A stretch of DNA of 64,000 nt. Source: Pocillopora verrucosa. Its lineage: Eukaryota; Cnidaria; Anthozoa; Scleractinia; Pocilloporidae. Under the pieces are notes generated by a model that had not been told where the DNA came from, did not search any database, and saw only the letters and a program-made list of their open reading frames with translations. The stretch lies in the NCBI RefSeq assembly GCF_036669915.1, contig NC_089322.1, forward strand, positions 18,407,719 to 18,471,718. Reading direction: 5' to 3'. Below are positions 39,305 to 62,679 of the stretch, in pieces. Within the stretch, counting starts at the first letter, position 1. Each line of letters begins with the position of its first letter. Both the position numbers and the translations under genes were made by a program.

Positions 39305-39720
39305 AACAATGGCGAAATTAAGTCTTACGCGAAAAAAGTCGGGGAAACAAATTTTGCTGGCAAGAAATTTCATCGACAGTGACGTCAGCCTGAACCATCT
39401 CTATAAACCATCCATCGTTCATGAAAATGAGTGTCGAAATGAGGGACATCCACATAACTTCTAGTTCAATCATGACGGTCAGGAAATACACGTCGCAATC
39501 ACAAGATTTACCCAAATCGAGGAAAGTAAGAGCACAGTTAAAAAAAAAAAAAAAAATTCTATCCTCAAACGACGAAAAGAAAAACTTGCTTCTCTTGCGC
39601 AGACATTTCACCCTTAAAAGAAATACTTGATAAATCAGAATCTTGACGCAAACATCGTTGTAAATTTCATGCAGTTTAAAACGAGCTGAATTTTGACCAG
39701 GAACGCAGTTTATCGTCACA

Positions 39721-39790
39721 TATAATGATAAATAATATTATTATTTATATATAATAATGATATATTAGTTTATATATGTCATTATATTAT
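39721..39790. repeat. AT palindrome near the duplication boundary
   Basis: Nearly pure A+T with mirror-like ATGATAAATAATATTATTAT and ATAATAATGATATATTAG segments able to fold back. Its counterpart is at 50683-50758. It lies within 120 bases of the start of each duplicated copy. Such AT palindromes are known break-prone sites; a role here is inference. Confidence 0.55.
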
Positions 39791-41173
39791 ATCCAATTTG
39801 TTTACAAGGCGACAATTCGCCTGGTCGACTAACGAGTTTTTGTCTCGCAGTTACGTATCACCTAAATAAACAACATGTGTATTGCGGACCTATCTAATTT
39901 TCTTGTCATAATACTCGTCCCAAGATTTGCCGCGGGATGCTCCTGCCCTCAATAAGAAATCAACAGGGTCAGGACCTCCTTGAGGCCAAGTTTGACTCAA
40001 GTTAAAAGAGAGGCAAGCTAATACAGGTAATGTGGCCCATGTTCCCAAATATATATGCTTTTATGTAAAGTTGAATGCATTCGTAGTGACAGAGAGTGAC
40101 TCTTTCACGATTGAAAACCTTACGATGTATTTCCTCTTGAAATTGATCGAAGTCGATCTGTTGGCGTTCTGAAATGTATTTGCAGCCACCTGTTTTAGTT
40201 TTTTTTGCACTTGATCATCTCCCCACTACTTGCGTTGCGCAACTTTCTTCGATTCTGGTCGTGAACAATTAAATATGCCGCTACAGGTGCATCTGGAGTT
40301 GATTTCCCAATGGATTTCGATTCATACGATGATGACGGGTCAAGTCTTGTTTGCCGCTATATGAAACATTTTCCCGGCTTGAAGTTACGTATTCTTTAAG
40401 AAATCGTTCAAAGTTTAAAGAAACATTAAATTTCGCCACCCATGCATCTTTCTTTACAAAGAAAATTGCGTCGAAATCGATTAATGTGAGCTGGATCAAG
40501 TGTTCTAAGTGTTACTTTTTGTGTTGAAAAGAACAACTCCAACGTCATTACTTTGTTGCTTAGATACCTAAGTATTTATGGAAATTAAGTTTTAAAAGTA
40601 AGTGTCACCAGAATTGTGAGTCATTTGGAGTAACAGCAAGGTATCGGGCGAAAAATATATTTATGTAGGCTTTAATTAAGCAGCCAGTAGAAGCCTGAAA
40701 AATGTAATTTGAGAGTACTTTTAGGAAAACTATTAATAGGAAAGGTTCATGTAAGCAACATTTAACCCTTAAATGGAACACAAACACTATGATTGTAACA
40801 ATAATTATCAGATTCCTTCTACCTGGTTCAGGAATATAACAGTCTTGTTATTCTACCATGTGTATTCGTCTTAATTTGTAAATTCTCAAGATCTATGTAC
40901 TAATTCTCCCTGCTATTTTCCAAAATTTTAGTTTTAAGAGTTTCCTGTTGTAGTTGAAATTTCGTATATTTTTTTTGTTAACATTTCTCTTTGAAATCTC
41001 AACAATGTTGTATGGAAATTACTTTCAATCACACATAGAGAGAAAGGTTAAAAAAAAAACAACATTGAGTGATTAAAATAACATTATGTGAACTTAATAC
41101 ATTTTTGCAATTCAAGTGGTCCATTAAACTCTCTGATTACTGGTAGCCGTTTTCTGTGGATCAGTGAGGAAGG

Positions 41174-44100
41174 ATAAGCCAATCATCATACCCCCCAGCA
41201 GGAGGAGGTTACCAAGGGCAACCAATGCATCCAGGTACAGCATGCAATAAATATTAAGCTGACCTATCATCCTTTTTTATTAATTTTCTTTAGGAGGTAA
41301 ATTTCTAAGGAAACTGTGGTGCTGTGTTGGTGGGATAGTATAACAGGGTAATTTAGTATTATCAACTAAGTTGATAACCTAAACTAGCCACAGTAAAGAG
41401 TTTTAAAGCCGACATTTTGAATCTTAGCCCTTTGTCAGTGTGAATGACAAAGGGCTAACACTCAAAACATCTGCTTCTTTTCTTCTTTATGATGGCCAAT
41501 TTACACCATCAACGCAGGTGATAATACTAAATTACCCTTTTTTACACCTTGTTTAGGTAAAGATTTAAAACAAAGACAGAAATTTAGGTAGAATTTGTTA
41601 TGAAATTACTTTATTGACCATTAATTAACCCTGTATTTCCCAAGATCTGACTGTCCATTCTCCCTTCTAGCTGCTAAATGTTTCTTCGTAAATCAGTTAA
41701 AGGAATTTGGTATTAGATTAAAATAACAACTTCTACCCAATAACTTTTAGTATTCTAATTACCTGTTTTCTAGATAATGTATGGATAATATATAGGAAGA
41801 AGTTATATGTTAATCTCTTCTTGGAGTTTAAGGGCTAAAGGCAGTTTTCTAATGCAACATTGATCAGCAGTTGTAGACATTCAAGATACTAGCAGTTCAA
41901 AACTGAACAGAATGACAAGCTTGTGTTTTTACTTTATGATGGGACAGTACTTGGCTATTTGGCTACTTGGCTACTCACTATTACAATAAAATTGGTAGGT
42001 AGTAAAATATAGCCAATCACATGACAGGTATATTTAGTTGGGAGAATTTGTCAAGAAATCAGAACACTTTTACTGAAGACCTTCTTTCAAACCCATCTAT
42101 ATAATAGCTGATAGTTTTTGCTAATTTCTTATTTACAGGTACACAGCAACCAGGTTATGAATCTAAAGCTCCTGCACAAGGAGTGCTTTCACAAGGATAT
42201 GGTCCTCCTCACCAAGGTTACCCAACTCAGCAACAGCCAGGTTATGGATCACCCCAACAACAAGGAAGTTATGGACCTCCTCAACAAGGAGGTTACACAC
42301 CACCTCAAGAGCAACCAGGGTATGGCCCTCCTCAGCAACAACCAGGCTACCCGCCATTGCAAGGTCAGCACCAGTATAATGGTGCACTACCCCAACACCA
42401 ACAGGGGTATGGAGGTGCACCTAACCAGCAGCAGGTTTTCACTCCTGTTACAGGTCAGTAAGGTTGCTTGTAACACACAGTTGTCTTGGTGGATGGAAGT
42501 GGTGATGAATGAGTAACTCCTTAACTTAACTGTTCTATAAAGCAGTTGTATGAACTCTTTATGAACATTTTATAGCTGTAGTTCTCTTTTGGATACAGCT
42601 GTCTGCAAACATTTTTACCAGATAACTTGAAAACATGCAGTGCTGAGAAATAAAGATGATGAATTGATGAAAAATTATCAATGATTTTAATAATATGTGC
42701 TTTATGTAATTTGTAGGTGAAGCACAAACCCCAAGTTATACTGGCTCAGATGTTCCTGATCAAGATGTAGGTGATAATGAGAATGCCACACCCCCTCCCC
42801 CAAGTGCCCCTCCTGCTGACATGTTCAGAAAGTTTGCTGGATATGAGTCTGTTAGCTTTGGTAGGTATTTGTGCTTAATATACCACTAAGTTAGAGATCT
42901 AACAAGTCCTTAAATAAAGATGTGTACTGTGTTATATCCTTGTTAATAGTGCCAAAGATCTCAAAGAATGGTTTTAAGAAACACACTTTTAGAGAACAAG
43001 ATTGAACTTGGTGTGATGGTTTTTGTGAAAGAAGGAATTATTGATCAAAGAGAAAAAAAAACTCAGAGCATGCACAAAAACTACCCAAAGGCATAATATA
43101 CATATAGCTTTTCCCATTCTAGGTTAAGTAGTAACTATGTGGTATGTTGAGCAGAGAATCTGACAGGGTAGATTTAAGAGAGGCCTGGATGTAAGGGGTT
43201 TTTGCATGATGTGGGACTAATTGTTTTTTATTTCCATGACCTGTGAAAATACAAAATTAAACCCCATGGACTATGAATTTTTTGCTTTTTGCAAAACATG
43301 AACCTAAAAATTGTTTATCTGATTTTTCATAATGCATTATTTCTACTTTTTGATTTATGTGAATTGTGCGCTTCGCAACTTGCGCAATTTTGAGAAAACT
43401 TTGAAAATACATGAAGTTAAATAAATCCATTATTGCCCTTGAGCCCACACAATTACATAAACTTATTCTTTGATTTTTTCAGGTACAGAATATCTGCCCC
43501 CTCCACCAGCATATGAACCTCCAGAACAGCAGCAAACACCAGAGCAGATTTTCCAACAGTAAGTCAATTAGAGATTCCCAGAAGACTATTCTATGAGATC
43601 TTTTTTGTTTTTTATCACAACATGTAAACAAATCATGTTATGCATTCAGCATAGTATGATTTGTGAGAATTATGATCATAGCTGCATCATAAAATAATTA
43701 TATCTGAACAAGCCCAACTGTAAGTGGTCCATTTGAATCATTTTAATCTGAGGGCCACAGCTATCTCTGAAGATCAGGCAAGAGATGCACTGCTTGCATT
43801 TGTAGCTGAGAATTGTTGCTATGGCAAAAAGGCTGCCACGGACATGGACATCAAAGACATAGCTCAATCCAGTGCATACCATGTAAGTGCAGAAATCACA
43901 TTTCCAGTTAGATTTAGTTGGGAGAATTTGTCAAGAAATCACTGAGGTCATCATCTCAAACCCATCATTCCCAAGGTCTCTAACCTTTTAACTCCTAGAA
44001 GAGATTAAAGTGTAACTTCTCCCTATCATGTCCATACATTATCCAGCAAACAGGTAATGAAAATATTCAAACTTATCAAGTAGAAGTTGTTATCTTGATC

Positions 44101-47100
44101 CAACACCAAATTCATGTAACTGCTTTACAGCAAAATGTGTGGCAGCTGGACGCTTGTATGTTTGTCTCAGTAACTGTATTATAGGCTGGCTACAGAGACC
44201 AAGAAAGAACAACAACAATAACATTGTTAATTTTAAAATCAAATGAAACATGACTTCAAACCCCAACTGACAGTGGACAAGCCAAATTATGGGCTGTTTA
44301 CAAGATTTAACGTGGTTTAAGATGTAACCTTGATACTGTCAGGGAACAACTCCAGCTAATTGTAGTGACACAGTAGGACTAAGACCTGGGACAGACCTGG
44401 GACCACAGAAATTGCAACTCATCAAATGATGGTTATCATTGATTATCTGTTTTTAATTTCCAGTATCACTTGATTAGTTTTTTTGAATCAAGATCCACGG
44501 CTTGGAAGCATGAACCCTACAAAGGTGAGTTAAATAAAAAATGGAATAAACAAATAGATAAAAGTGTCAATCTTTGGGAGTCCATAATTATTTAGCTGGG
44601 CCTTTGAAGATGCATATGGAAGCCCAAGGCTCATGATGCTGTTTTCTCTTATGCTTGTTACAACTTTCTTAACTTTGATATTTCACAAGTTTGTTTCATT
44701 TACAAAGCTGGAAGAACCAAGCTTTCCAATCTACATGTATGACAGCAGAAACCATGCTAAAACCACTTATCAAAGCATCTATAGGTAACAGTTTGTTTAT
44801 GAATGTAGGACAGGTGATTGATGGTCCTCAAAATGGCCCTGCCCCTCCACCATGGAGCATTCCTGCTCAACCAAATCAGATATTTACACCTCAGGCAGTG
44901 AACATTGAGGTGCCCCATACTGCATCAGTTAAGGTAAAGACACCTTGTTACATAGGTGGGCATTTGTATTTTGGCTGATTTTAAATAGTGGTAGGGATTG
45001 ATGGAATGTGGAATCATTTTCCAGACAGTGCAACTTCCTAGGCTTGTAACTAATTGTTTATCACAAGTTGTAAGGGAAATTAACAGCAAATTATCATCAC
45101 ATGGTTCTGAGATTAAATTATGTAAATTAAAGTTGACTTAAAATAAATTAACCAAGAGTTCTCTCAACTAACTACATCACCATACTTTATTTTGACATTA
45201 TAAGGCTCTATTTAAATTCTGTGTTCCCTACTTTTTCAGCCCTGCCATGAATGCATGGCCTCAGGCTACAAACTCTGTTACGAATGCCATGGAAGGGGAA
45301 GGGTGAGATAAATTTTTTTTACATTATCTTTTCAATGATGTGTGGTCTCAGGAATATTTGCCCCCCTCCCCCCTCAGGCAGTTTATTTTTGCTCTCAACA
45401 TTTATTCAGGACTTTTAATTTCCAAACCTCCTTTCCCCTCCTCCCCCCCCCCAAAGAAGGGATCTCCTGTGACCCGTGGCGGGGTAGTTATAGAGCTGTT
45501 TTTAGTCTCAAATTGTGTAATGTTTCCTTAATATGTTTTTAACTGGATTTAATTTTTAAGGTCCACACCAAAGAAGCATGAACCTTTGCTCACTCGTGAA
45601 CGATAAAATTCGTATCCCCGCGCGGCCATGTAATGATCTGTTTATTTTATTTATACTGATGAAATTTCAAAGGAACTAGCCGTGCGCCTGAGCGGGAAGC
45701 TCTCTTGTAATTGGCTAATCATGTTAGTAACCATGGCGACACCAATATCCTCACACGTGAAAGATAACTATAGTATCTTCACTGCGCGCAATGAAGATAT
45801 GATTTTTTAAGTGAAAGGAAAATTAGTATCTATATAATATAATACCTTGTACTGCATACAAACCATGGTTCAACGTGTGTAGCAGGAACAGAACTTCGGA
45901 AAATTGAACACGCCAAAAAATCCAACCTCTGCCGTAAAGAGTCATTTACTGAGGTGCAAACAAAGTATACCAGTGGCTGAGCTTTTGGTTTTTAGTAGAA
46001 CGACTTAAAATAAAAACATTACCCATTTCTCAAACAGCCATACTGTATAAATGCTTTAGTTACCTTTGTTTTCTTGTCTACCTTTTCTGCGGCGGTCATT
46101 TTTGAATGATTTACGTTGGCGCCGTTGTTTTTTTGTGGAAACTGGGACCGAGAACTGGAATGTTACAGTCTCAGCCAATCAGATGCGAAATAATCGCACG
46201 ACGACTTCACTCGAATTTTCCCGTGCATTAGGTTGGTCACGTGTATGTACTATTTTCCTCATTGGCTACTTTTAATGTGGAACTTCGTTATGATTGGCTG
46301 ATACGATTAATTTCGTTTTGATTTAACGACATTCAGTCGAGACGACCTTCAAGTAATTTTTGGTAATTGAGTGGTGTGCTCGTATCAAAAATTATTGTCT
46401 TCCTTCTCTGTCAGGTTCGTTGTACATCGTGTAACGGTTCTGGTAACAGTACCGAATACCGTGATGGGCAATCACGTAGCGTAAGCTGCACGTGGTGTTG
46501 TGGATTTGGAACGACAACGTAAGTTCAGCGGAGTATAAATCATAATCACCAATCACAAAAAGAGAAAAAAAGGTACAAAAAGCCTCTGTGAACTCACATT
46601 AAACCTAAAACAACTAGCAGAAGCGCTGGAGAACCGCACGGACTCGGTCGTTCGTTAGTGCGTTCGGTCGTTCGTGCGCGCGTTCGTTTTTTTGCTCGCA
46701 CGTTCGTTTTTGTTGTTCTCGCGTTCGCTCGTTTGTTATAAGGAAATATTGGTGTTAGAAGAGAAAACTGCTGATCAGATCTTGACATTTTAAGGATTAA
46801 CTGTAAGATGCCTTAGTTAGATGTTAATTATTGCAGATGCGACACGTGTCATGGCCATGGACATGTGATATGCTGGATATGTCTGGGGCAGACGCAACTT
46901 AAGTGGTTCATTCAGCTTACGATCACGTGGTGAGAAACTGAATTCTATATTCTTATTAACTGAATATGAAACGTTACTATACCCGCTCTGTGTCATAGGA
47001 AAACCACCTCATGTCACAGGTAAACCACCTCATGTCACAGGTAAACCACCTCATGTCACAGGTGAACCACTCCGTGTCACAAGTGAACCACTCCGTGTCA

Positions 47101-48721
47101 TTAGTAAACCACTCCGTGTCATACTGGAACATTCTGTTAGGGAGTTGGCTTGTTAGACGAACTACAACACAACTGCGGTTTTCAACTGAGTGCCGAAAAT
47201 CCAAAACCAAAGTTCTTATAAAGGCCAATCAGAGAGAAGTTTAACCAATGAGAACTCAAAGTGTAAACATGCAAACTTCTGCGGAACGCGGGAAAACGCG
47301 ACTGACCAAGTCGTGATTGGTTGTAGTTGTGCACCAGATTGGTTGAGTTAGGGGCGCGAGTTTTGAATACCTCAGAGCGAAATAGAGCAGAACTGGAACC
47401 AACAATCCCCTGTTGCTATCGACAATCCATTGAAAAGTTGCTCCGTAAAGACATGTACGAATTAAACGGTTGAAACACTTAATGATAAAGTTATGTACAC
47501 GCATCCTTGTCCTAGAATATCAGGGAATCATTCCCGACCGCCTGCTTTTTTTCTCATCTCACAGGGCAAATCACATCGATAACCACGTGACCGAGAGAAC
47601 AGATCTACCGGATCAACTTATACTAGGGTCTCAGGGAACGGAAATTTTTACTCAAGAACTTCCACGGGTAAATATGACTGATTATGAAACAGAAACAAGA
47701 AAACATTTCACCCTTTAACTCCCATGAGTGACCAAGACAGAATTTCTCCTCACAATATCAATACAATACCAACCAAAAAAGTGATGAGAATGAAGAAAAA
47801 TATTAATTTGAGGATAATTAGTTGATGCAATACTAAATTCTCTGAGCTAACACTATAAGAATTGTATGGTTGACAGTAAGGAGAATTACAAATTTGATCC
47901 GGGAGTCTAACTCGTTTTATATTTTTTTTATGTACACTTTTAGGTTTATCCCATCACAGCCTTTCATGATGAAGATGTGAATAATGGCTCGCAGCGACTT
48001 GTCGAAGCTCATTCGCGGAACTGGCCTACAAAGCGAATCCTTATGCAGGTGGGAAATAGTGAAACTTTTAGTCTTTGGGAAATAGTTTTAGTTTGTTTTT
48101 AGAGATAGAAAGAACAACACCAGGGTAGTTTCCCCAGAATACTAAACCGCTTCCACAGCATTCATAAGTTTGAAACGCGCGCTTGAATGGACGAGGGCGT
48201 CACGCATTTCTCTTCTCGCGAGCGCGTTCTTATTTGCGGCGCAAACAGCCCTTACAGCATCCGGAAGTCTGAAACGCGCGCGAAAGGAAAACCGAGTGTC
48301 ACGCGTTTCTTTCCTCTTGCACACGTTTACAACAGCTCTCATAGCATGGGTAAGTCTGAAATGCGCGAGGGGAGGGGTAAAACCATTGCGCGTTTCTTTC
48401 TCCGGCCCCGCGCGCGTTTCAATCTTCTATAGTATGCTCGTGATATGTTCATATGTTCATGATATGCGTGCGAGAAGGGAAACTACAGCGTTTTAATTTT
48501 TGCGCACAGAGCCCTTGCAACTTTGATATAAAACAGGACTCTTGAACTTGACTGGTCAATACTTTTTGTTTCAGCGTCAAACTCTAAGAGCGGTACCAGT
48601 TTTTGAGGTGAAATATGAATGGAAAGACACTGATACTCGCTACTGGGTGTACGGGTTGGATCACAAAGTACATGCCCCAGACTACCCCCAAAAGTGTTGT
48701 TGGGGCTGCGCCATACTTTAA
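41174..48721 (+). CDS. SSUH2: SSUH2-like protein, left paralog, 13 exons, original start codon lost
   Basis: Exons: 41174-41234, 42139-42453, 42717-42860, 43483-43558, 43753-43882, 44464-44524, 44809-44933, 45240-45302, 46415-46518, 46837-46929, 47565-47667, 47944-48048 and 48575-48721. All phases agree and the sum is 1527 bases. Domains in order: Pro/Gln/Gly/Tyr-rich repeats (GYGSPQQQGSYGPPQQ) with a PPAY motif, a conserved helical segment (EDQARDALLAFVAENCCYG), a cysteine-rich DnaJ-like region with six CxxC pairs (for example CYECHGRG, CTSCNGSG), and the diagnostic C-terminus (YWVYGLDHKVHAPDYPQK, CCWGCAIL). SSUH2/Ssu-2 family proteins are poorly understood. The codon matching the paralog's ATG is ATA (41174). 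The next in-frame ATG is at 41225, costing 17 residues, so translation may still occur (491 aa). AATAAA at 49060. Confidence 0.8.
41347..41536. mobile_element. Penelope-type inverted terminal repeat pair in SSUH2 intron 1, left copy
   Basis: Starts GGTAATTTAGTATTATCAAC and ends GTGATAATACTAAATTACC, with internal GACAAAGGGCTAACACTCAA. It is the same element as 23922-24115 and is present at the same place in the right paralog (52309-52504), so it predates the segmental duplication. Confidence 0.6.
45575..45840. mobile_element. Insertion in intron 8 of the left SSUH2 copy only
   Basis: Between the shared texts GTCCACACCAAAGA and ACTGCATACAAACCATGG the left copy has about 266 bases absent from the right copy at about 56957. 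It contains CGTGAACGATAAAATTCGTA near the left and CACGTGAAAGATAACTATAG towards the right, partly inverted motifs. It looks like a small non-autonomous element inserted after the duplication, unless it was lost from the other copy. Confidence 0.5.
46981..47125. repeat. 21-bp minisatellite in SSUH2 intron 10, left copy
   Basis: About seven units near GTCACAGGTAAACCACCTCAT in part (first unit from 46990), grading from CACCTCAT to CACTCCGT variants. A diverged counterpart lies at about 58090-58235 in the right copy. It produces spurious open frames on both strands. Confidence 0.75.
48155..48425. repeat. CpG-rich tandem repeat, about 85-90 bases x 3, in SSUH2 intron 12
   Basis: Three imperfect units start near ACAGCATTCATAAGTTTGAA, ACAGCATCCGGAAGTCTGAA and ATAGCATGGGTAAGTCTGAA, each followed by CGCGCG-rich text. 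The right copy has the same at about 59157-59425. Unusual for its CpG richness in an AT-rich region. Several overlapping open frames arise here and look spurious. Confidence 0.65.
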
Positions 48722-49147
48722 AGAAATGAACAGAAGAGAGGTTAAGGAACAAAGGCAAACAAATTTCAATGCAAACTATCTATGATGTGAAATAGTTAGA
48801 CTTTAGGTTTCTCTACATTTTCCAGTGGGAATTAAAAAATTATTTTACTTGCTTGATCTCTTAGCTTGATCGCTTTTTCGGAAATGGGAGTAATTTCATG
48901 TGAATAGTAGGAATTAAGTTTACTCTGATTAATTCACTATGCGAACGAAGGCTTTGCTTGAAAGACAACCAAACAACAAACGTAAACCCCATTGATCAAC
49001 TTTAATGGATGAAAACTTTAGTATGTTTTTAATATCTTAAAACTGAATTTGACTGCCGGAATAAAATAAAAATCCGTAGGCTGATTTTCACTCAGTCAAC
49101 ATTTATTCGATTTTCAGGTAGCAAAACGAAGTAAACATGATTGGCAA

Positions 49148-50565
49148 CTACCAGTCGTCAATTCTCTTCTTTTTCTTATGCTTTCGTTTCGGCTGCCATA
49201 TTGATTTGTCAGGTTTAGGTGGCATATTAGCAGCAGCCTTTCTTTCCTTGTACTCTTGCCTGCAAGAAAAGACAAGCGGAGGAAAATTTGAAATCATTAA
49301 AGTCATTTCTTTATTAATCCAGGTTAAATAAAGCACTGGCTTGCATCAATAAATACTTTTTAAAACTGCAACACTACCACATCACTCGTTTGGCCACTCG
49401 TTTCAAACAAACTGATCTTGAACCTTAACACCCAAACATCAGAAGCCATTTTCTCCACACCGTTCTTTAAACATTTCTTTTGGTACTGACAAGGAGAATT
49501 TGATTGACAATCAGGAGCTTTTGAAATTGGTGATCATTTCCTTTATCCTCGTGACCTTTATATTTGATTCAAGAGTGATAAGGTAAGGAGAGATTAGAAA
49601 CCAGTCACTATCAGGGGATTAAAGATTAAACAAGAAGGGCATTTCGCAGCACATAACTTACCATTTCCGTCCGATGTATTTCACAATTCGTACACATAAT
49701 CGGCACACGACAAAACCAGCAACCAAGAAGGCGACAGTGACAGCCAAACCAGCGAAGACAGCATAGACGGCATCTTGCCAGGAAAAGAAATCAAAGCGAG
49801 CTTGAATATGTTTTACATATTCTGTTGGAAAACAAAATTAATGTCACAAATAAGAAACAAAGAAAAGTTTAAAAATATTAGCAATAGTGTACTTTTTCGC
49901 AGAGTCAAATGTAATAATTGAGAAAAAGTCGAGCAACTGTAGAAATTCAGAAGAAATTTGAGGCATCCTTTAAAGTGCACCGTGCGGCCCCTATATAAAA
50001 AAAATAATAGTTAAATGATAATAATAATGTTAATAATAATAATTATTGTAATATTAATGATAATAACAATCTATTCCAGACAAAAAGTGAGAAGTGAAAT
50101 AGTCACTCTCTCCTCTGCTAGGCCAATTATGACTTGTCACACTCAAATTGGTGAACAATTGACTTACCACGGAGGAAACCAAAGTAAACCTCGACAGCAA
50201 CGTCAGTTATAGAGCAGACGACAGGAACAAACGGTTCAACAATCCACATAACTCCGTTAATCATCATCTTGGTCAGCTCAGCTGACATATTTTGGATCAT
50301 CTTAGCGAACGAATCTGTCGCATTTATGGAAAAAACCGTCAACTATTGAAGTCCATTCCAGATAACCTCGGCTAACCATTGAAGTCCACTCCAGTAACGT
50401 CAGCCAACAATTTAAGTCCATTCCAAATAACCTCAGCCAACCATTGAGGTCCATTCTAGATAACCTCGGCCAACCATTGAAATCCATTCCAGATAACCTC
50501 AGCCAACAATTGAAGTCCATTCCAGATAACTTTAGCCAACCACTGAAGTCCAATCCAATACAAAA
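49148..50565 (-). pseudogene. Truncated left copy of the Trp-repeat membrane-protein gene
   Basis: Minus-strand exons in order: 50565-50168 (repeat array then NGVMWIVEPFVPVVC), 49821-49662 and 49259-49148, all with matching phases and GT-AG junctions. The second encodes a single membrane helix (YAVFAGLAVTVAFLVAGFVV) with flanking KHIQARFDFFSWQD. The last is a basic tail (KRKHKKKKRIDDW). The 5' exons are missing because the duplication junction falls in the array. The array has only about six units, with two TAG codons in place of TGG and a frameshift. I take it as a pseudogene. It converges on the SSUH2 gene, whose polyadenylation signal lies 83 bases from this stop codon. Confidence 0.6.
50345..50560. 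repeat. 33-bp tandem array, left copy (about 6 units)
   Basis: Unit near TTGAAGTCCATTCCAGATAA followed by CCTCAGCCAACAA. On the minus strand it encodes an 11-residue pattern W-N-G-L-Q-W-L-A-E-V-I. Stops and one frame change interrupt it. Confidence 0.85.
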
Positions 50566-52139
50566 TATGAAAGTAGGAGTGGGAGCAAATTTTGGGTGAC
50601 TTGCTTGCTGCTGTTTGTCTGATGCATGTTGATATTAGCTCTTAAAACGAGCCGAATTTTGACCAGGAAAGCAGTTTACCATTATATAAAATGATAAATA
50701 ATATCATTATTTATATATAATTATGATATATTAGTTTATATATATATATTATATTATATCAAATTTGTTTACAAGGTGACAAATCGCCTGGTCGACTAAC
50801 GACTTTTGTCTTGCATTTACGTTCCATTTACAATATGTGAATTGCGGACCTATCTAACTTTTTTATCACCATACTCGTGACCAGATCTTCCGCGGGATGC
50901 TCTTGTCCTCCGAAATCAATAGGGTCAGGACCTCCCTGAGGCCAAGTTTGACGCAGATTTAAAGAAGGGCAAGCTAATACAGGTAATGTGGCCCATGTTC
51001 CCATATATATATGCTTTTTTGTAAAGTTGAATGCATTCGTAGTGACAGAGAGTAACTCTTTCACGATTGAAAACCATACGATGTATTTCCTCTCGAAATT
51101 GATCGGAGTCAATCTGTTGGCGTTCTGAAATGTATTTGCAGCCACCTGTTTTAGTTTTCTTTGCACTTGATCATCTCCCCACTACTTGCGTTGCGCAACT
51201 TTCTTCGATTCTGGTCGTGAACAGTTAAGAAAAACTTGTAAATATGCCGCTACAGGTGCATCTGGAGTTGAGTAATTCCAAATAACTTTCGATACTTACG
51301 ATGATGACAGGTCGAGTCTTGTTTGGCGCTATGTAAAACATTTTTTCCGGTTTGAAGTTACGTATTCTTTAAGACTTCGTTCAAAGTTTAAAGAAACATT
51401 AGATTTCACCACGCATGTATCTTCCTTTACAAAAAAAAAAAAAGCGTCGAAATCGATTAATGAGAGCTAGATCAAGTGTTATAAGAGTGTTACTTTTTGT
51501 GTTAATAGAGAACAACTCCCACATCGTTACTTAGTTGCCTAGATACTTAATATTTATGGGAATTAAGTTTTAAAAGTAAGAGTCACCAGAATTATGAGTC
51601 ATTTGGAAAAACAGCAATATCGGGTGAATAATATATTTATGTAGGCTTTAAGCAGCCAGAAGCCTGAAAATGTAATTTGAGAGTACTTTTAGGAAAACTA
51701 TTAATAGAAAAGGTACATGTAACCAACATTTAACCCTCAAATGGAACACAAACACTATGATTGTAACAATAATTATCAGATTCCTTCTACCTGGTTCAGG
51801 AATATAACAGTCTCATTATTCTACCATGTGTATTTGTCTTTATTTATAAATTCTCAAGATTTATGTACTAATTCTTCCTGCTGTTCTCCAAAATTTTAGT
51901 TTTAAGAATTTCCTGTTTTAGTTGAAATTTTGTGTATTTTTTTTGGTTAAAATTTCTCTTTGAAATCTCAATAATGTTGTACAGAAATTACTTTCAATCA
52001 CACATAGGGAGAAAGGTTAAAAAAAAACATTGACTCAGATTAAAATAACATTATGTAAACTTAATATATTTTTGCAATTCAAATCTTCATAAAGCTCTCT
52101 GATTACTGTTAGCTGTTTTCTGTGGATCAGTGAAGAAGG

Positions 52140-52251
52140 ATGAGCCAATCACCATACCCCCCATCAGGAGGAGGCTACCAAGGGCAATCAACATATCCAG
52201 GTACAGTGTGCATTAAATATTAGGTAGACCTAACACCTTATGTTCATTTAT

Positions 52252-52287
<36 letters not shown>

Positions 52288-55200
52288 ATCAGTGGGAGAG
52301 TATAACAGGGTAATTTAGTATTATCAACTGAGTTGATAACCTAAACTAGGGTTAGCCACTGTAAAGAGTTTCAAAGCTGACATTTCGAATGTTAGCCCTT
52401 TGTCAGGGTGAATGGCAAAGAGCTAATGTTCAAAACATCTGCTTCTTTTCTTCTTTATGATGGCCAATTTACACCATCAATGCAGGTGATAATACTAAAT
52501 TACCCTTTTTTATACCTTGTTTAGGTAAAGATTTGAAACAAAGACAGAAATTTAGTTAGAATTTGTTATGAAATTACTTTATTGACCATTAATTAACCCT
52601 GTATTTCCCAAGATCTGATCATTCATTCTCCTCTCTTGCTGCTAAACATTTCTTCGTAAATCAGTTAAAGGAATTTGGTATTAGATTAAAATAACAACTT
52701 CTACCCAATAACTTTTAGTATTCTTATTACCTGTTTTCTAGATAATGTATAGATAATATATAGGAAGAAGTTATATGTTAATCACTTCTTGGAGTTTTAG
52801 GGCTAAAGGCAAGTTTCTGATGCAACATTGATCAGCAGTTGTAGACATTCAAGAATATATACCAGTACTAGCAATTCAAAAGTGAACAGAATGACAAGCT
52901 TGTGTTTTTATTTTATGACAGGACATTGCTTTTTAATGGTGTCTCGCTATTGTTTACTATGGAATAGGTTGGAAATAAGATAGATCACAGGTATATTTAG
53001 TTGGGAGAATTTGTCAAGAAATCACAAAACTTTTAGTGAAGGCCTTCTCTCAAACCCATCTATTTAATAGCTGATAGTTTGAGCTAATTCCTTATTTACA
53101 GGTGTACAGCAACCAGGTTATGGATCTACAGCTCCTTCACAAGGAGTGCCTCCACAAGGATATGGTCCTCCTCACCAAGGTTACCCACCTCAGCAACAGC
53201 CAGGTTATGGACCACCCCAACAGCAAGGAAGTTACAGACCTCCTCAACAACAGCCAGGTTATGGAGCTCCCCAACAGCAAGGAAGTTATGGACCTCCCCA
53301 ACAAGGTTACGCACCACCTCAACAGCAACCAGGATATGGCCCTCCTCAGCAACAACCAGGCCACCCGCCATTGCAGGGTCAGCACCAGTATGATGGTGCA
53401 CCACCCCAACAACAACAGGGGTATGGAGGTGCACCTAACCAGCAGCAGGTTTTCACTCCTCTTACAGGTCAGTAAAAGGGTTATGGTTGCTTGTAACACA
53501 CAGTTGTCTTGGTGGATGGAAGTGGTGATAAATGAGTAACTCCTTAACTTAACTGTTCTATAAAGCAGTTGTATGAACTCTTTATGAACATTTTATAGGT
53601 GTAGTTCTCTTTTTGATATTGCTGTCTGCAAACATTTTGCCAGATAACTTGGAAGTGTGTGGTGCTGAGAAATGATGATTATGAATTGATGAAAAATTAA
53701 TATCAATGATTTTAATAATAGTGATCAAATACATGTGAACTAAAAAAAGAGTAAACACCTACTTGGGAAGTAAACGTACTACTAACAATAATTACCAGAC
53801 ATGAACAATGTTTTGGGTTAGACTACTAATTTATATATAGTTTTTGAAATTTTAATTAATTATGCTTGAATAGATTTATAGTGATTTCTTTCATAGAGGG
53901 CATGTGTTTTTTGATTTACACTCTGACATTTTAAGTATGGAATAAAAACAAATTGTCAGGTCAGACTCTGAAGCTTGATATGAAAGGTGACTAAGGGATT
54001 ATACAGTCTTATTACAAGAGCACATTGGCAAATATTTTTTTTTCATTGAATGTGCTTTATGTAATTTGCAGGTGAAGCACAAACCCCAAGTTATGTTGGC
54101 TCAGATATTCCTGATCAAGATGTAGATGACAATGAGAATGCTGCACCCCCTCCCCCAAGTGCCCCTCCAGCTGAAATGTTCGGAAAGTTTGCTGGATATG
54201 AGTCTGTTAGCTTTGGTAGGTGTTTGCGTTAAATATACCACTAAGTTAGAGATCCAACAGGTTCTTAAAAAAAGATGTGCTGTGTTATGCCCTGGTTAAT
54301 AATGCCAAAGATCTCAAAAAATGTTTTTTAAGAAACATGCTTTAAGGTATTACGATAGAACTTGGTGTGATGGTTTTTGTGAAAGAAGGAATTATTGATC
54401 AAAGAGAAAAATCCTCAGAGCATGCACAAAAACCAACCAAAGGCATTATAGCTTTTCCCATTCTAGATTAATCCTTTCACTCCCACAAGTGACCAAGACA
54501 AAATTTCTCCTTACAATATCAATACAATATCAAGCAGGCAGGTGATGAGAATAGAGAAGAATATCAATTATGGGATTATTAGTTGATCCAATAACAAGTT
54601 CTCTTTGCTTTTTGCAAAACATGAACCTTAAAATTGTTTATCTTATTTTTCATGATGCACTTTTTGTACTTTTTGATTTACGTGAATTGTGTGCTTCATG
54701 ACTTGCACAATTTTGAGAAAACTTTGAAAATACAAGTGATTAATTAATCCTTTATTGCCCTTGAACCCATGCAATTACATATACTTATTCTTTGATTTTT
54801 TCAGGCACAGAATATCTGCCCCCTCCGCCAGCATATGAACCTCCAGCACAACAGCAAACACCAGAGCAGATTTTCCAACAGTAAGTCAATTAGAGATTCC
54901 CAGAGGATTATTCCATGAGATCTTTTTTGAAGCAAAATTTGTGATAACATTTAATGTTATCACATAGCATGATTTGTAAGAATCATGATCATAGCACGCA
55001 CTAACTGTAAGTGGTCCATTTGAATCATTTTAATCAGGGCCACAGCTATCTCTGAAGATCAGGCAAGAGATGCACTGCTTGCATTTGTAGCTGAGAATTG
55101 TTGCTATGGCAAAAAGGCTGCCACGGACATGGACATCAAAGACATAGCTCAATCCAGTGCATACCATGTAAGTGCAGAAATCATGTTTACAATTAGATTA

Positions 55201-58200
55201 AGTTGGGAGAATTTGTCAAGAAATCACAACACTTCTACTGACGTCATTATCCCAAACCCATCGTTCCCAAGGTCTCTAACCTTTTAACTCCTCAAAGAGA
55301 TTAACATGTAACTTCTCGCATCATATCCATACATTATTCAGCAAACAGGTAATGAGAATATTCAAACTTATCAAGTAGAAGTTGTTGTCTTGATCCAACA
55401 CCAAATTCATGTTACTGCTTTACAGAAAAATTTGTAGCAGCTGGAGGGGAAAATTCACGGTCAGATCTTGGGAGTTAAAGGGTTAATCAGGGAAACATTA
55501 AATAATAAATATAATTGGAATTTGGGTGTCAGTGGAGTTGAAAGTTGACACTTATATGTTTTGTCTCAGTAACTGTATTATAGGCTGGCTACAGAGACCA
55601 AGAAAGAACAACAACAATGACATTGTTAATTTTAAAATCAAATGAAACATGACTTCAAACCCCACCTGACAGTGGAAAAGCCAATGGGCTGTTTACAAGA
55701 TTTAACATGGTTTAAGATGTAACCTTGATACTGTCAGGGAACAACTCCAGCTAATTGTAGTGACACAGTAGGATGAAGACCTGGTACCACAGAAATTGCA
55801 ATTCATCTTATGATTGATATCATTGATTATCTGTTTTTAATTTACAGTATCACTTGAATAGTTTTTGTGAATCAAGATCCACAGCTTGGAAGCATGAACC
55901 TTACCGAGGTGAGTTGAATAAAAAATGAAATAAACTAATAGATAAAAGTGTCAATCTTTGGGAGTCCATAATTATTTAGCTGGGCTTTTGAAAATGCAAA
56001 TGGAAGCCCAAGGCTCGTGATGCTGTTTTCTCTAATGCTTGTTACTACTTTCTTGACTTTGACATTTCACAAGTTTGTTTCATTTACAAAGCTAGAAGAG
56101 CCAAGCGTTCCAATATACATGTATGGCAACAGAAACCATGCTAAAACCACTTATCGAAGTATCTGTAGGTAACAGTTTGTTTATGAATGTAGGTCAGATG
56201 ATCGATGGTCCTCAGAATGGCCCTGCGCCACCACCATGGAGCATTCCTGCTCAACCACATCAGATATTTACACCTCAGGTAGTGAACATTGAGGTGCCCC
56301 ATACTGCATCAGTTAAGGTAAAGACACCTTGTTACATAAACAAGGCATTTATATTTTGGCTGATTTTAAATAGTGGTAGGAATTGATGGAGTGTGGAATC
56401 ATTTTCCAGATAGTGCAACCTCCTAGGCTTGTAACAAATTGTTTATCACAAGTTGTAAGGGAAATTAACAGCAAATTATCATAGATTAAATTCTATAAAT
56501 TAAGGTTGACCAAAAATAAATTAACCAAGAGCTCTCTCAACTAACTACATTACCATACTTTATTTTGACATTGTAAGGTTCTATTTAAATTCTTTGTTCC
56601 CTATTTTTTCAGCCTTGCCATGACTGCATGGCCACAGGCTACAAACGCTGTTACAGATGCTATGGAAGGGGAATGGTGAGATATATTTTCTTTACATTAT
56701 TTTTTTCAATGATGTATGATCTCAGGAATATTTGGACCTCAGCTCCATCACTGCCCCCCTCCTCCCTCAGGTAGTTTATTTTTGCTCTCAACATTTATTC
56801 AGGACTTTTTATTTCCAAACCTCCTTTCCCCTCCCCCAAAGGAATGATCTCCTGTGACCCGTGGCGGGGCAGTTATAAAGCTGTTGTTAATCTCAAATTG
56901 TGGAATGTTTCCTTAATATGTTTTCACTAGATACAATTTTTTAAGGTCCACACCAAAGATGATTACCTTTTACTGCGTACAAACCATGGTTCAACGTGTG
57001 TAGCGGGAACAGAACTTCGGAGAATTGAACACGCCAAAAAAATCCAACTTTTGCCGTAAAAAGGCATTTACTGCGGAGCAAACAAAGTATACCAGTGGCT
57101 GAGCTTTTGGATTTTGGTAGAAATACTCAAAATAAAAACATCAACCATTTCTCAAACAGCCATACTGTATAAATGCTGTAGTTACCTTTGTTTTCTTGTC
57201 TTCCTCGTCTGCGGCGGCCATTTTTGAATGATTTACGTTGGCGCCGTTGTTTTTTTGTGGAAACTGGGATCGAGAACTGGAATGTTACAGTCTCAACCAA
57301 TCAGATGCGAAATAATCGCACGGCGACTTCACTCGAATTTTCCCGCGCATTAGGTTGGTCCCTTGTATGCGCTATTGTCCTTATTGGCTACTTTCAATGT
57401 GGAACTTCGTTCAGATTGGCGGCTATGATTAATTTCATTTTGATATAACGGCACTCAATCGAGACGACCTTCAAGTAGTCTTTGGTAATTGAGTGGTGCG
57501 CTCATTTCAAAAATTATTGTCTTTCTTCTCTGTCAGGTTCGTTGTTCATGGTGTCAAGGTTCTGGTCGCCGTACCGAATACCGTGATGGGAATTCACATA
57601 GAGTCAGATGCACGTGGTGTCATGGAAGTGGAAGGAGAATGTAAGTTCAGTGAAATTTAAATCGTAATCACCATTTACAAAAAGAAAACAAGCACAAAAA
57701 GCCTCTGTGAACTCATTAAACTTAAAACAACTAGCTGAAGCGCTGGAGAACCGCAAGGGCTCGGTCGTTCGTGCGCGCGTTCGCTTTTTTGCTCGCACGT
57801 TCGTTTTTGTTGTTCTCGCGTTGGTTCGTTTGTTATAAGGAATTATTGGTGGTAGAAGAGAGAATTGCTGATCAGATCTTGGAATTTTAAGGATTAACTG
57901 TAAAATGCCTTAGCGAGATGTTAATTGTTGCAGATGTAACACGTGTGATGGTAATGGGCGTGTGATGTGCTGGACATGTCAAGGGGCAGCGCAGCTCAAG
58001 TTGTTCATTCAGCTTACGATCACGTGGTGAGTAACTGAATTCCGTATTCTTGTTAACTGATTATGAAACGTTACTATACTTGAATCACGCTGGATAAATC
58101 AGTGTCCTAGGTGATCAACTCTGTGTCACATGTAAACCACCTCGTGTCCCAGTTGATCCACTCTGTGTCACAGGTAAATCACCTCGTGTCATTGGTGAAC

Positions 58201-59683
58201 CACTCCGTGTCACAGGTGAACCACACCGTGTCATAGTGGAGCACTCTGTGAGGGAGCTGGCTTGTCAAACTTCTGTGGAACGCGGGAAAACTCGAGTGAC
58301 CAAGTCGTGATTGGTTGTAGTTGTGCACCAGATTGGTTGAGAAAGGGACGCGAGTTTTGAATACCTCAGGGCGAAATAGAGCAGAACTGGAACCAACAAT
58401 CCCCTTTTTACTATCGACAGTCCATTGAAAAGTTGCTCCGCAAAGTCATGTACGAATTAAACGTTTGAACACTTAATGATAAATTGATATATACGCATCC
58501 TTGTCCTAGAATATCAGTGAATCACTCCCGACCGCCTGCCTTTTTTCTGATCTCACAGGGAATGTCACATCGATAACCACGTGACGGAGAGAACAGATCT
58601 ACCGGATCAACTTATACTAGAGTCTCAGGGAACGGAAATTTTTACTCAAGAACTTCCACGGGTAAATATGACTGATTACGGAAAATATTTCACCCATTAA
58701 CTCCTGTAAGTGACCAAGACAGAATTTCTCCTTACAATATTAATACAATACCAACCAGAAAAGTGATGAGAACAAAGAAAAATATTAATTTGGGGATAAT
58801 TTGCTGATGCAATACTAAATTCTCAGAGCTAATACTATAAGAATTGTATGGTTGACAGTAAGAAGAATTACAAATTTGATCCGGGATTTTAAAGGTTAAA
58901 GTTAGTCTCTAACTCGTTTTATATTTTTTTTTATGTACACTTTTAGGTTTATCCTGTCACAGCCTTTCATGATCAAGATGTGAATAATGGCTCGCAGCGA
59001 CTTGTCGAAGCTCATTCGCGGAACTGGCCTACAAAGCGAATCCTTATGCAGGTTGGAGATAGTGAAATTTTTAGTCTTTGGAAAATAGCTTTAGTCTGTT
59101 TTTAAAGATAGAAAGAACAACACCAGGGTAGTTTCCCTAGAATACTAAACCGCTTCCACAGCATTCATAAGTTTGAAATGCGCGCTTGAATGGACGAGGG
59201 CGTTACGCATTTCTCTTCTCGCGAGCGCGGTTTTATTTGCGGCGCAAACAGCCCTTACGGCATCCGGAAATCTGAAACGCGCGCGAAAGGGAAACCGAGT
59301 GTCACCCGTCTCTTTCCTCTTGCACACGTTTACAAAAGTTCTCATAGCATGGGTAAGTCTGAAATGCGCGAGAGGAGAGGTAAAACCATTGCGCGTTCCT
59401 TTCTCCGGCCCTGCGCGCGTTTAAATATTCTATAGAAGGGAAACTACAGCGTTTTAATTTTTTTCGCACAGAGCCCTAGCAACTTTAATATAAAATGGGA
59501 ATCTTGAACTTGACTAGTCAATATTTTTTGTTTCAGCGTCAAACTCTAAGAGCGGTACCAGTTTCCGAGGTGAAATATGAATGGAAAGACACTGATACTC
59601 GCTACTGGGTGTACGGGTTGGATCACAAAGTACATGCCCCAGACTACCCCCAAAAGTGTTGTTGGGGCTGCGCCATACTTTAA
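52140..59683 (+). CDS. SSUH2: SSUH2-like protein, right paralog, 13 exons, 525 aa
   Basis: Exons: 52140-52200, 53102-53467, 54072-54215, 54805-54880, 55038-55167, 55848-55908, 56193-56317, 56613-56675, 57537-57640, 57934-58026, 58559-58661, 58947-59051 and 59537-59683. The sum is 1578 bases in consistent phases. The start ATG is at 52140. Exon 2 is 51 bases longer than in the left paralog, giving 17 more residues of Gln/Pro/Gly/Tyr repeats. It then carries GTEYLPPPPAYEPP (a PPxY motif able to bind WW domains), the EDQARDALLAF segment, the zinc region (CHDCMATG, CYRCYGRG, CSWCQGSG, CTWCHGSG, CNTCDGNG, CWTCQG) and the C-terminal VKYEWKDTDTRYWVYGLDHK. The zinc region is much more arginine-rich than its sister's. 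This is the better candidate for a working gene. AATAAA at 60022. Confidence 0.88.
52309..52504. mobile_element. Penelope-type inverted terminal repeat pair in SSUH2 intron 1, right copy
   Basis: Same position and sequence type as 41347-41536: starts GGTAATTTAGTATTATCAAC and ends TGATAATACTAAATTACC. Shared ancestry with the left copy shows insertion before duplication. Confidence 0.6.
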
Positions 59684-61276
59684 AGAAATGAACAGAAGAG
59701 AGGTTAAGGAACAAGGACAAACAAATTTCAATGCAAACTATCTATGATGTGAAATAGTTAGACGTCAGGTTTCTCTACATTTTGCGATGGGAATTAAAAA
59801 ATTATTTTACTTGCTTGATCTCTTAGCTTCATTTCTTTTTCGGTAATGGGAGTAATTTCATGTGAATAGCAAGAATTAAGTTTACTCTGATTAATTCACT
59901 ATGCGAAGGAAGGCTTTGCTTGAAAGACAACCAAACTACAAACGTAAACCCCATTGATCAACTTTAATCGATGAAAACTTTAGTATGTTTTTAATATCTC
60001 AAAACTGAATTTGACTGCCGGAATAAAATAAAAATACGTAGGCTGATTTTCACTCAAAAAAAGATTTGTTCGATTTTTAGGCAACGAAATAAAGTAAACA
60101 TGATTGGCAACTACCAGTCGTCAATTCTCTTCTTTTTCTTATGCTTTCGTTTCGGCTGCCATATTGGTTTGTCAGGTTTAGGTGGCATATTAGCAGCAGC
60201 CTTTCTTTCCTTGTACTCTTGCCTGCATAAAAAGACAAGCGAAGGAAAAGTTAAAGTCATTGAAGTCATTTCTTCATTCACTAGTTCAAGTATAGCACTG
60301 GTGTGCATCAAAAATTACTTTTTAAAACTGCAAAACTAACGCATCACTCATTTGGCCACTCATTTCAAACAAACTGATCTTAAACCTTAAATCCCCAAAC
60401 ATCAGAGGCTAATTTCTCCACACTGTTCTTTAAACATTTCTTTTGGTACTGACAAGGAGAATCTTAATGATAATCAGGAGCCTCTGAAATTGGTGATCAT
60501 TTCCTTTATTCTCATAACTTCTATATTTGATTCAAGAGTGATAATGTGAGGGGAAATTAGAAACCAGTCACTATCAGGAGATTAAGGATTAAACAAGAAG
60601 GGAATTTCGCAGCACATAACCTACCATTTCCGTCCGATGTATTTCACAATTCGTACACATAATCGGTACACGACAAAACCAGCAACCAGGGAGGCGACAG
60701 TGACAGCCAAACCAGCGAAGACAGCATAGACGCCATCTTGCCAAGACAAGAAATCAAAGCGAGCTTGAATATGTAAAATAAATAAAAAAAAAAACAAAAC
60801 AAATAAGAAACAAAGAAAAGTTTAAAAATATTAGCAATAGTGTATTTTTTCGCAGAGTCAAATGTAATAATTGAGAAAAAGTCGAGCAACTGTCGAAATT
60901 CAGAAGAAATTTGAGGCATCCTTTAAAGTGTACCGTGCGGCCCCTATATAAAAAAAAATAATAGTTAAATGATAAAAATAATAATTATAATAATAATTAT
61001 TATAATATTAATGATAATAACAATCTATTCCAGCCAAAGAAATCAAAGCGAGCTTGAATATGTATTACATGTTCTGTTGGAAAACAAAATTAATGTCATA
61101 AATAGTAAACAAAGAAAAGTCATTAAAAAATTAGCAATTGTGTACTTTTTTCGCCGAGTCAAATGTAATAATTGAGAAAAAGCCGAACAACTGGCGAAAT
61201 TAAGAAGAAATCTGAAGCATCATTTAAAGTGCACCTTGTAGCCCCTATATAGAGAAATAATAGTTAAGTTCTAATG

Positions 61277-61310
<34 letters not shown>

Positions 61311-61639
61311 TTATAATACTAATGATTATAATAATCTATTCCAGCCAAAAAGTGAGAGGTGAAATGGTCACTCTCTCCTCAGCTAGGCCAATTATGACTT
61401 GTCAAATTCAAATTGATGAACAATTTACTTACCATGGAGGAAACCAAAGTAAAACTCTACTGCAACTTCAGTTATATAGCAGACGACAGGAACAAACGGT
61501 TCAACAATCCACATAACTCCGTTAATCATCATCTTGGTCAGCTCCGCTGACATATTTTGGGTCATCTTTGCGAACGAATATGTTGCATTTATGGTAAAAT
61601 CCATCAACCATCGAAGTCCAGTCCAGATAGCCTCAGCTA

Positions 61640-62260
61640 ACCATTGAATTCCATTTCAGATTACCTCAGCCAACAATTGAAGAGCATTCCAGATAACCTT
61701 AGCCAACAATTGAAGTCCTTTCCAGATAACTTCAGGCAACAATTGAAGTGCTTTCCAGATAACCTTAGCCAACCATTGAAGTCCAATCCAAATAACCTTG
61801 GCCAACCATTGAAGTCCAATCCAGATAACCTCCGCCAACAATTGAAGTCCGTTCCAGATAACCTCAAGCAACAATTGAAGTTCATTCCAGATAACCTTAG
61901 CCAACCATTGAAGTCCAATCCAGATAACCTCCGCCAAAAATTGAAGTCCATTCCAGATAACCCCAGCCAACAATTGTAGTCCATTCCAGATACCCATAGC
62001 CAACCATTGAAGTCCAATCCAGGTAACCTCCGCCAACAGTTGAAGTCCATTCCAGATAACCCTAGCCAACAATTGAAGTCCATTCCAGATAACCCTAGCC
62101 AACAATTGAAGTCCAATCCAGATAACCTTAGCCAACAGTTGAAGTCCATTCCAAAAAAATCCCAGCCAACAATTTCATTCCATTCCAGATAACCTCAGCA
62201 AACCATTGAAATCCACTCAAGATAACCTCAGCCAACCACTCGGCACACTTCCACAACAAT
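61640..62260. repeat. 33-bp tandem array, right copy (about 15 regular units plus older ones)
   Basis: Units near GTCCATTCCAGATAACCTTA followed by GCCAACAATTGAA, regular from about 61640 to 62150 and more diverged towards 62260. The minus-strand protein pattern is I-W-N-G-L-Q-L-L-A-E-V. Because 33 is divisible by three, other frames stay open too: a 162-codon minus frame (61661-62149) and a plus frame (61644-61979). Flanking coding sequence supports only the Trp/Leu frame. Confidence 0.9.
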
Positions 62261-62679
62261 TTTCCAAGCCACCGCGCACCGTTCCACGTCAAGCCTGAAA
62301 GCCATGCGACTTTTCCGCGAGTCCAATTTACCATTCCGATCCAGATGTCTTCAAGTCCATTCCATACTTTGCCAGTCACTGCCCTTGAGATCATGATGCA
62401 TTTCTTCCATATGCAAGAGGTTAATTCCACCGTACCGTCCTGCACCTGGGTCATTACTGTCACTGTGAAGTTCCACATCTGGGGTATTAATCCAGGGTTT
62501 GTAATCTCGAAAGCCTCGTAATCAAAGCATGTTGTGTTTCCGAGATCCTGAATTATTTTCTTGCAATTGAAGATCTGACAATGTCAATTTAGAGAAGTTA
62601 TTAGCCAAGTGACATCCGAAATAATATTCCGGTTAGTTTGGTATTCTAAGACATAAAAGTAATAAAGATATTGGGAGGA

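Follow-up and report, generated by a model that had tools for sequence, protein, structure and literature searches.

Within a 64,000-nucleotide stretch of the Pocillopora verrucosa genome (contig NC_089322.1, positions 18,407,719 to 18,471,718; hereafter the window), we found two tandem SSUH2-like genes whose cysteine-rich zinc domain, encoded by exons 8 to 10, has diverged in residues far more than the remainder of the gene. This excess is specific to these exons, postdates the duplication that separated the two copies, leaves every cysteine and glycine of the domain in place, and in the left copy ran toward fewer basic residues. Whether it reflects functional divergence of the zinc domain after duplication, with some positive selection in addition to relaxed constraint, is in our judgment evenly poised. 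Positive selection in the zinc exons is plausible, not proven, and hangs on the choice of neutral yardstick.

Residue change is concentrated in exons 8 to 10

Both genes lie on the plus strand, the left copy at 41174 to 48721 and the right copy at 52140 to 59683, and each consists of 13 coding exons with an open frame and exon phases that match between the copies. Exon boundaries were chosen by reading, from GT/AG splice sites and the open frame alone. The right copy runs from ATG to TAA and encodes 525 amino acids; the first codon of the left copy is ATA. The protein combines a PQ-rich N-terminus, in which the repeat of exon 2 is 51 bp shorter in the left copy than in the right, with the zinc domain of exons 8 to 10. 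In the right copy, exon 8 (56613 to 56675) encodes CHDC and CYRCYGRG, exon 9 (57537 to 57640) CSWCQGSG and CTWCHGSG, and exon 10 (57934 to 58026) CNTCDGNG and CWTCQG. The left counterparts read CHEC and CYECHGRG (exon 8, 45240 to 45302), CTSCNGSG and CTWCCGFG with one additional cysteine (exon 9, 46415 to 46518), and CDTCHGHG and CWICLG (exon 10, 46837 to 46929).

Between the two copies, 30 of the 87 zinc-exon residues differ, compared with 42 of 421 in the remaining ten exons, so that protein identity is 66% in the 87-residue module and about 90% outside it. Differing residues number 6 of 21, 14 of 35, and 10 of 31 in exons 8, 9, and 10, confirming the strong divergence reported in an earlier note on this DNA, whose 13 of 34 for exon 9 omitted a codon split by an intron. 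That note had described the rest of the gene as nearly frozen, which is accurate for exons 4 to 7 (1/26, 0/43, 3/20, and 3/42) and exons 11 to 13 (3/34, 2/35, and 1/48), where changes are few, and not for exons 1 to 3 (6/20, 17/105, and 6/48), which together differ at 29 of 173 residues. Its values for exons 5, 12, and 13 were correct, and exon 5 (55038 to 55167 in the right copy, 43753 to 43882 in the left copy) differs at 0 of 130 bases and lies inside a 148-bp identical run.

The nonsynonymous rate is approximately 4-fold higher in exons 8 to 10 (37 changes/206.8 sites) than in the other ten exons (47/978.8; Fisher p=2.8e-9). Nonsynonymous divergence (dN) and synonymous divergence (dS) are 0.204 and 0.188 in the zinc exons and 0.050 and 0.082 elsewhere, and total DNA divergence is 0.127 in exon 8 and 0.19 in exons 9 and 10. 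As the earlier note had seen, nearly all change in exon 9 alters residues: we counted 19 nonsynonymous changes and 1 synonymous change (NG86), the latter in 23.7 silent sites. Exon 8 also has a single silent change, and exon 10 has 11 nonsynonymous and 7 synonymous changes. We also observed that differences in exon 9 (57537 to 57640) are rich in transversions, with 15 transversions to 5 transitions compared with 240 to 332 in introns (p=0.005).

All 12 cysteines and all 11 glycines of right exons 8 to 10 are retained in the left copy, more than the "most" glycines previously claimed. None of these 23 codons was hit, while 30 of the 87 codons changed (p=8e-6). The cysteine count over these exons is 12 in the right copy, 13 in the left copy, and 13 in a third copy, whose additional cysteine occupies another position.

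A third copy dates and orients the change

Searching the species' own genome (353 Mb in 52 contigs) placed this third copy on the same contig, with exons 3 to 13 at 18479987 to 18487562, about 8 kb beyond the window end, and with exons of nearly equal lengths. About 5 kb beyond the window end, a weak match (E=0.016) marks its probable exon 1. Over exons 3 to 13, the third and right copies share 65% identity. Outside the zinc exons, the left and right copies differ at 19 of 295 amino acids and the right and third copies at 101 of 295; within the zinc exons, these distances are 28 of 83 and 33 of 83. Because the left-right distance nears the right-third distance in the zinc exons only, the acceleration postdates the left/right duplication. 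Three-taxon codon likelihood analysis put the zinc-exon omega (dN/dS) at 1.5 for the left and right branches; the value of 0.11 for the long third-copy branch is soft due to near saturation of silent sites to the third copy (0.76 to 0.87). A separate zinc omega for the left and right branches gained 33 log units over a single zinc value. Before the left/right duplication, the zinc exons appear to have been about as conserved as the rest of the gene. By parsimony, the 28 residue changes at 83 aligned zinc codons comprise 8 on the left, 5 on the right, and 15 ambiguous, and the 19 at 295 codons of exons 3 to 7 and 11 to 13 comprise 5, 4, and 10, respectively.

Lysines and arginines together make up 14 of the 83 residues of the exon 8-10 peptide in the third copy, 14 of 87 in the right copy, and 7 of 87 in the left copy. 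Since the third and right copies agree, the arginines of the right copy are mostly old, and what the earlier note took as a gain of arginines in the right copy is instead a loss of basic residues in the left copy. This polarization does not extend to the two arginines of GRRTEY, which fall in a stretch absent from the third copy. The motif given as HGSGRRM in the right copy reads HGSGRRI, with the final codon split between exons 9 and 10. Outside the zinc domain, left exon 6 (44464 to 44524) has lost a cysteine, reading SFFESR where the right and third copies read SFCESR.

Positive selection, relaxed constraint, and other candidate explanations

Divergence of introns 7 to 10 is 0.071, 0.092, 0.092, and 0.128, with no peak at introns 8 and 9 and with a repeat-rich stretch within intron 10. 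The nonsynonymous rate of exons 8 to 10 exceeds the divergence of introns 8 and 9 combined (104/1133; p=0.0003), as does the rate without the 23 cysteine and glycine codons (37/152.8; p=4e-7), which also differs from that of silent sites across the whole gene (p=1.5e-5). When the neutral rate was set by an intron clock, the zinc omega after duplication was 2.3 (an omega of 1 being rejected at p=5e-5) and that of the codons outside the cysteine/glycine class was 3.3 (p=3e-8). This class was defined here by residues conserved in all three copies and comprises 23 codons, as many as there are cysteines and glycines in right exons 8 to 10; setting it apart nevertheless biases omega upward in the codons that are left, and the pooled 2.3 is therefore the safer value. 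The clock excludes the poorly aligning intron 3 (0.23), giving 437/4838 sites instead of 572/5425. On the same clock, the left copy is accelerated at p=5e-8. A model with a free omega per branch and block was discarded after it ran to the boundary (omega of 148, branch length of 0.001).

Non-coding windows vary beyond chance: among 69 windows of 104 bp, 20 or more differences occur in 6, some of which sit where the copies carry unlike inserts. With the neutral rate drawn from these real windows as an empirical null, the probability of at least 37 nonsynonymous changes is 0.0002 to 0.034 for codons outside the cysteine/glycine class and 0.0055 to 0.082 for all codons, the ranges reflecting the treatment of gapped windows. 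For exon 9, 19 or more nonsynonymous changes together with no more than 1 silent change have a probability of 0.0007 to 0.0016, uncorrected for the 13 exons.

Other results weigh against positive selection. The pooled dN/dS of exons 8 to 10 is 1.09, and a value near 1 counts against diversifying selection. Nonsynonymous and synonymous changes stand at 37:9 in these exons, not significantly different from 47:22 in the rest (p=0.20), and dN/dS exceeds 1 in exons 1 and 2 as well (1.38 and 1.48, with 0.66 in exon 3). The silent rate of the zinc exons is mildly above that of the rest (p=0.07). When the zinc exons were given their own silent rate, omega was 0.94 over all zinc codons and 1.75 outside the cysteine/glycine class (p=0.12), an omega of 1 fitted equally well (a difference of 0.02 log units), and the left/right omegas of the zinc exons and the rest differed by 2.9 log units (p~0.016). 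Likewise, dN outside the cysteine/glycine class compared with silent sites of the same codons gave p=0.17, and the probability of at least 37 nonsynonymous changes was 0.08 when all non-coding windows were used. Silent changes are in excess in exon 10 (7/18.7 silent sites; p of 0.001 to 0.002 relative to introns), and local divergence itself may therefore be raised; with a dS of 0.52 and an omega of 0.32, this exon behaves unlike the adjoining exon 9. Acceleration of the right copy alone is not significant (p=0.086), and the left/right split in the zinc exons, about 21:14 in a preset-rate reconstruction, is statistically indistinguishable from an equal one (p=0.31). The left copy is without its original ATG, the zinc exons were chosen for testing because they were divergent, and the softness of the long-branch omega belongs here as well. 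The diversifying selection proposed in the earlier note finds support on the intron clock and loses it when the zinc exons' own silent rate is used.

Relaxed constraint without positive selection would account for the pooled omega, the unchanged ratio of nonsynonymous to synonymous changes, the equal fit of an omega of 1, the exon 10 silent excess, and the lost ATG if the inter-cysteine residues of one or both copies were nearly free to change after the duplication, local neutral divergence were high, and the cysteines and glycines were needed for folding. We regard this as a real possibility to be held tentatively, since introns 8 and 9 within the block are ordinary, nonsynonymous change outside the cysteine/glycine class exceeds them, exon 9 has so few silent changes, and the parsimony counts above give no clear sign of relaxation of the left copy in exons 3 to 7 and 11 to 13.

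The state of the left copy bears on a further explanation, that it is a young pseudogene drifting neutrally. It begins with ATA (41174), in place of the ATG shared by the right copy and the probable third-copy exon 1, and a 2-bp insertion has turned its exon 5 acceptor (43745 to 43752) into ctgag, compared with tcag in the right copy. GAG acceptors are weak, and skipping of the 130-bp exon 5 would shift the frame. Against drift, the left reading frame contains no stop or frameshift over its 13 exons, whereas simulation in which neutral change along the left branch was taken to be 4.8% produced a mean of 3.9 stops and a probability of 0.023 of none. From the density of gaps in introns, about 13 gaps would be expected in the coding sequence over both lineages, and we observed one in-frame gap. 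The spared cysteines and glycines and an in-frame ATG at codon 18 also argue against a pseudogene, which we consider improbable. Both frames are open, which supports the earlier note in setting aside general pseudogene drift. The left copy is presumably expressed.

Gene conversion could in principle produce the pattern in two ways, by homogenizing the gene outside exons 8 to 10, as the earlier note had suggested, or by overwriting the block exons with sequence of a paralogue that had diverged further. Between the copies, the two longest identical runs, 148 bp each at exons 5 and 13, exceed 125, the 99% run length in simulations that assumed a uniform rate and no selection, and the dS and omega of exon 10 resemble those of an older tract. 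Both runs nevertheless fall on conserved exons, and silent divergence outside the zinc block (22/284, or 0.077) is near the intron value of 0.09 to 0.105, so that the reduction of silent and intron divergence outside the block that marks concerted evolution was absent. As for overwriting, the single silent change in each of exons 8 and 9 is unlike an old donor, the polarized changes of the block lie on both copies such that neither bears a block from the third copy, and we detected no fourth locus: a search with the left zinc query (E<=10; best candidates only) returned eight matches, all in the three known copies. Gene conversion is also called very rare among coral tandem genes in the account of Noel et al. 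2023 (PMC10236652). Conversion of either kind is, in our view, very improbable.

Functional divergence with some positive selection is in our view the likeliest mechanism. A tandem duplication of about 11 kb yielded the two SSUH2-like genes, after which residues between the putative zinc ligands changed fast, most clearly in the left copy with the loss of half its basic residues. The zinc scaffold would have been held by retention of every cysteine and glycine while exposed positions, proposed here as client-protein contacts, were retuned; positive selection, clearest in exon 9, may have added to relaxed constraint.

Relationship to zinc chaperones and the surrounding locus

The right zinc region matched the DnaJ cysteine-rich domain PF00684 weakly (E=3.8e-5), with scores of 24.3 bits for the right, 16.9 for the left, and 18.2 for the third copy, all below the Pfam gathering cut-off of 32.7 bits. 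Scores to BSD2 PF25436 were likewise below its cut-off of 27 bits (24.5, 21.4, and 11.6, respectively). Weak matches to PDB entries included DnaJ (1exk, E=0.0024) and BSD2 structures (6ekb, E=0.0022; 9ci1, E=0.013), and the top-ranked chain, 8xku (E=0.00036), matched without any single significant stretch. We found no J domain in the full right or left protein at E<=0.1, and an NCBIfam search yielded nothing beyond DnaJ and a single PriA match at E of 0.12 or worse. No SSUH2 match appeared in the protein and domain libraries searched, and the name SSUH2 comes from the earlier note together with the motif layout. In the published description of human SSUH2/fls485, three consecutive exons encode four or more CXXCXGXG repeats, accompanied by truncated CXXCXG motifs (PMC2838759). 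Right exons 8 to 10 show this arrangement by eye, with four CXXCXGXG, one truncated CXXCXG, and one CXXCXXXG. The coral genes differ in occurring as tandem copies and in having a PQ-rich N-terminus. The human protein has also been described as a putative chaperone, without functional proof.

Exons 8 to 10 probably bind zinc and may contact client proteins. Type I Hsp40 proteins of the DnaJ kind are similar through the weak cysteine-rich profile match and differ from the right and left proteins in possessing a J domain. The J-domain-less zinc chaperones BSD2 and ZnJ2 (PMC5818400) offer a functional model, with the difference that both act in chloroplasts, and the protein here is an animal protein of 525 amino acids. 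The tandem arrangement resembles that of the tandem duplicates reported in effusa (PMC10236652), although the main text of that paper does not name SSUH2. Literature searches on SSUH2 and coral returned no paper describing this tandem pair, and contig scans of other genomes and of viruses returned no SSUH2 relative. One apparent hit was dropped as a chance match in a long open reading frame of a bacterial record, read by eye as a hydrolase.

Self-BLAST of the window revealed a single segmental duplication in tandem, roughly 11 kb in size, with a left unit at 39676 to 50557, a right unit at 50642 to 61823, and main blocks 85 to 92% identical. By reading, each unit holds a 13-exon plus-strand gene and at least part of a minus-strand gene. 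This neighbor (49148 to 50560 on the left, 60111 to 62272 on the right) has a C-terminal KRKHKKKKRIDDW exon, an exon that appears membrane-like by reading, and then repeats of about 33 bp that are more numerous in the right copy. Minisatellite-like repeats occupy intron 10 of both SSUH2-like genes (46983 to 47121 and 58102 to 58250).

A more far-reaching proposal is that recurrent positive selection on inter-cysteine residues split a pair of J-domain-less zinc chaperones into two client specificities, the left copy exchanging a strongly basic zinc face for a near-neutral one (lysine plus arginine from 14 to 7) and acquiring one more cysteine, with the two proteins remaining interchangeable over most of their other parts. 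We think this rather unlikely. The pair is interesting, though no new kind of system. An Acropora "Protein SSUH2 homolog" has been described as heat-induced and as lying inside a region with heat-adaptation signals; if our proposal is true, the chaperone pair would be heat-responsive, provided that the Acropora result carries over. If SSUH2 copies do diversify at the zinc domain, this pair would be a compact test of how corals make new chaperone specificities.
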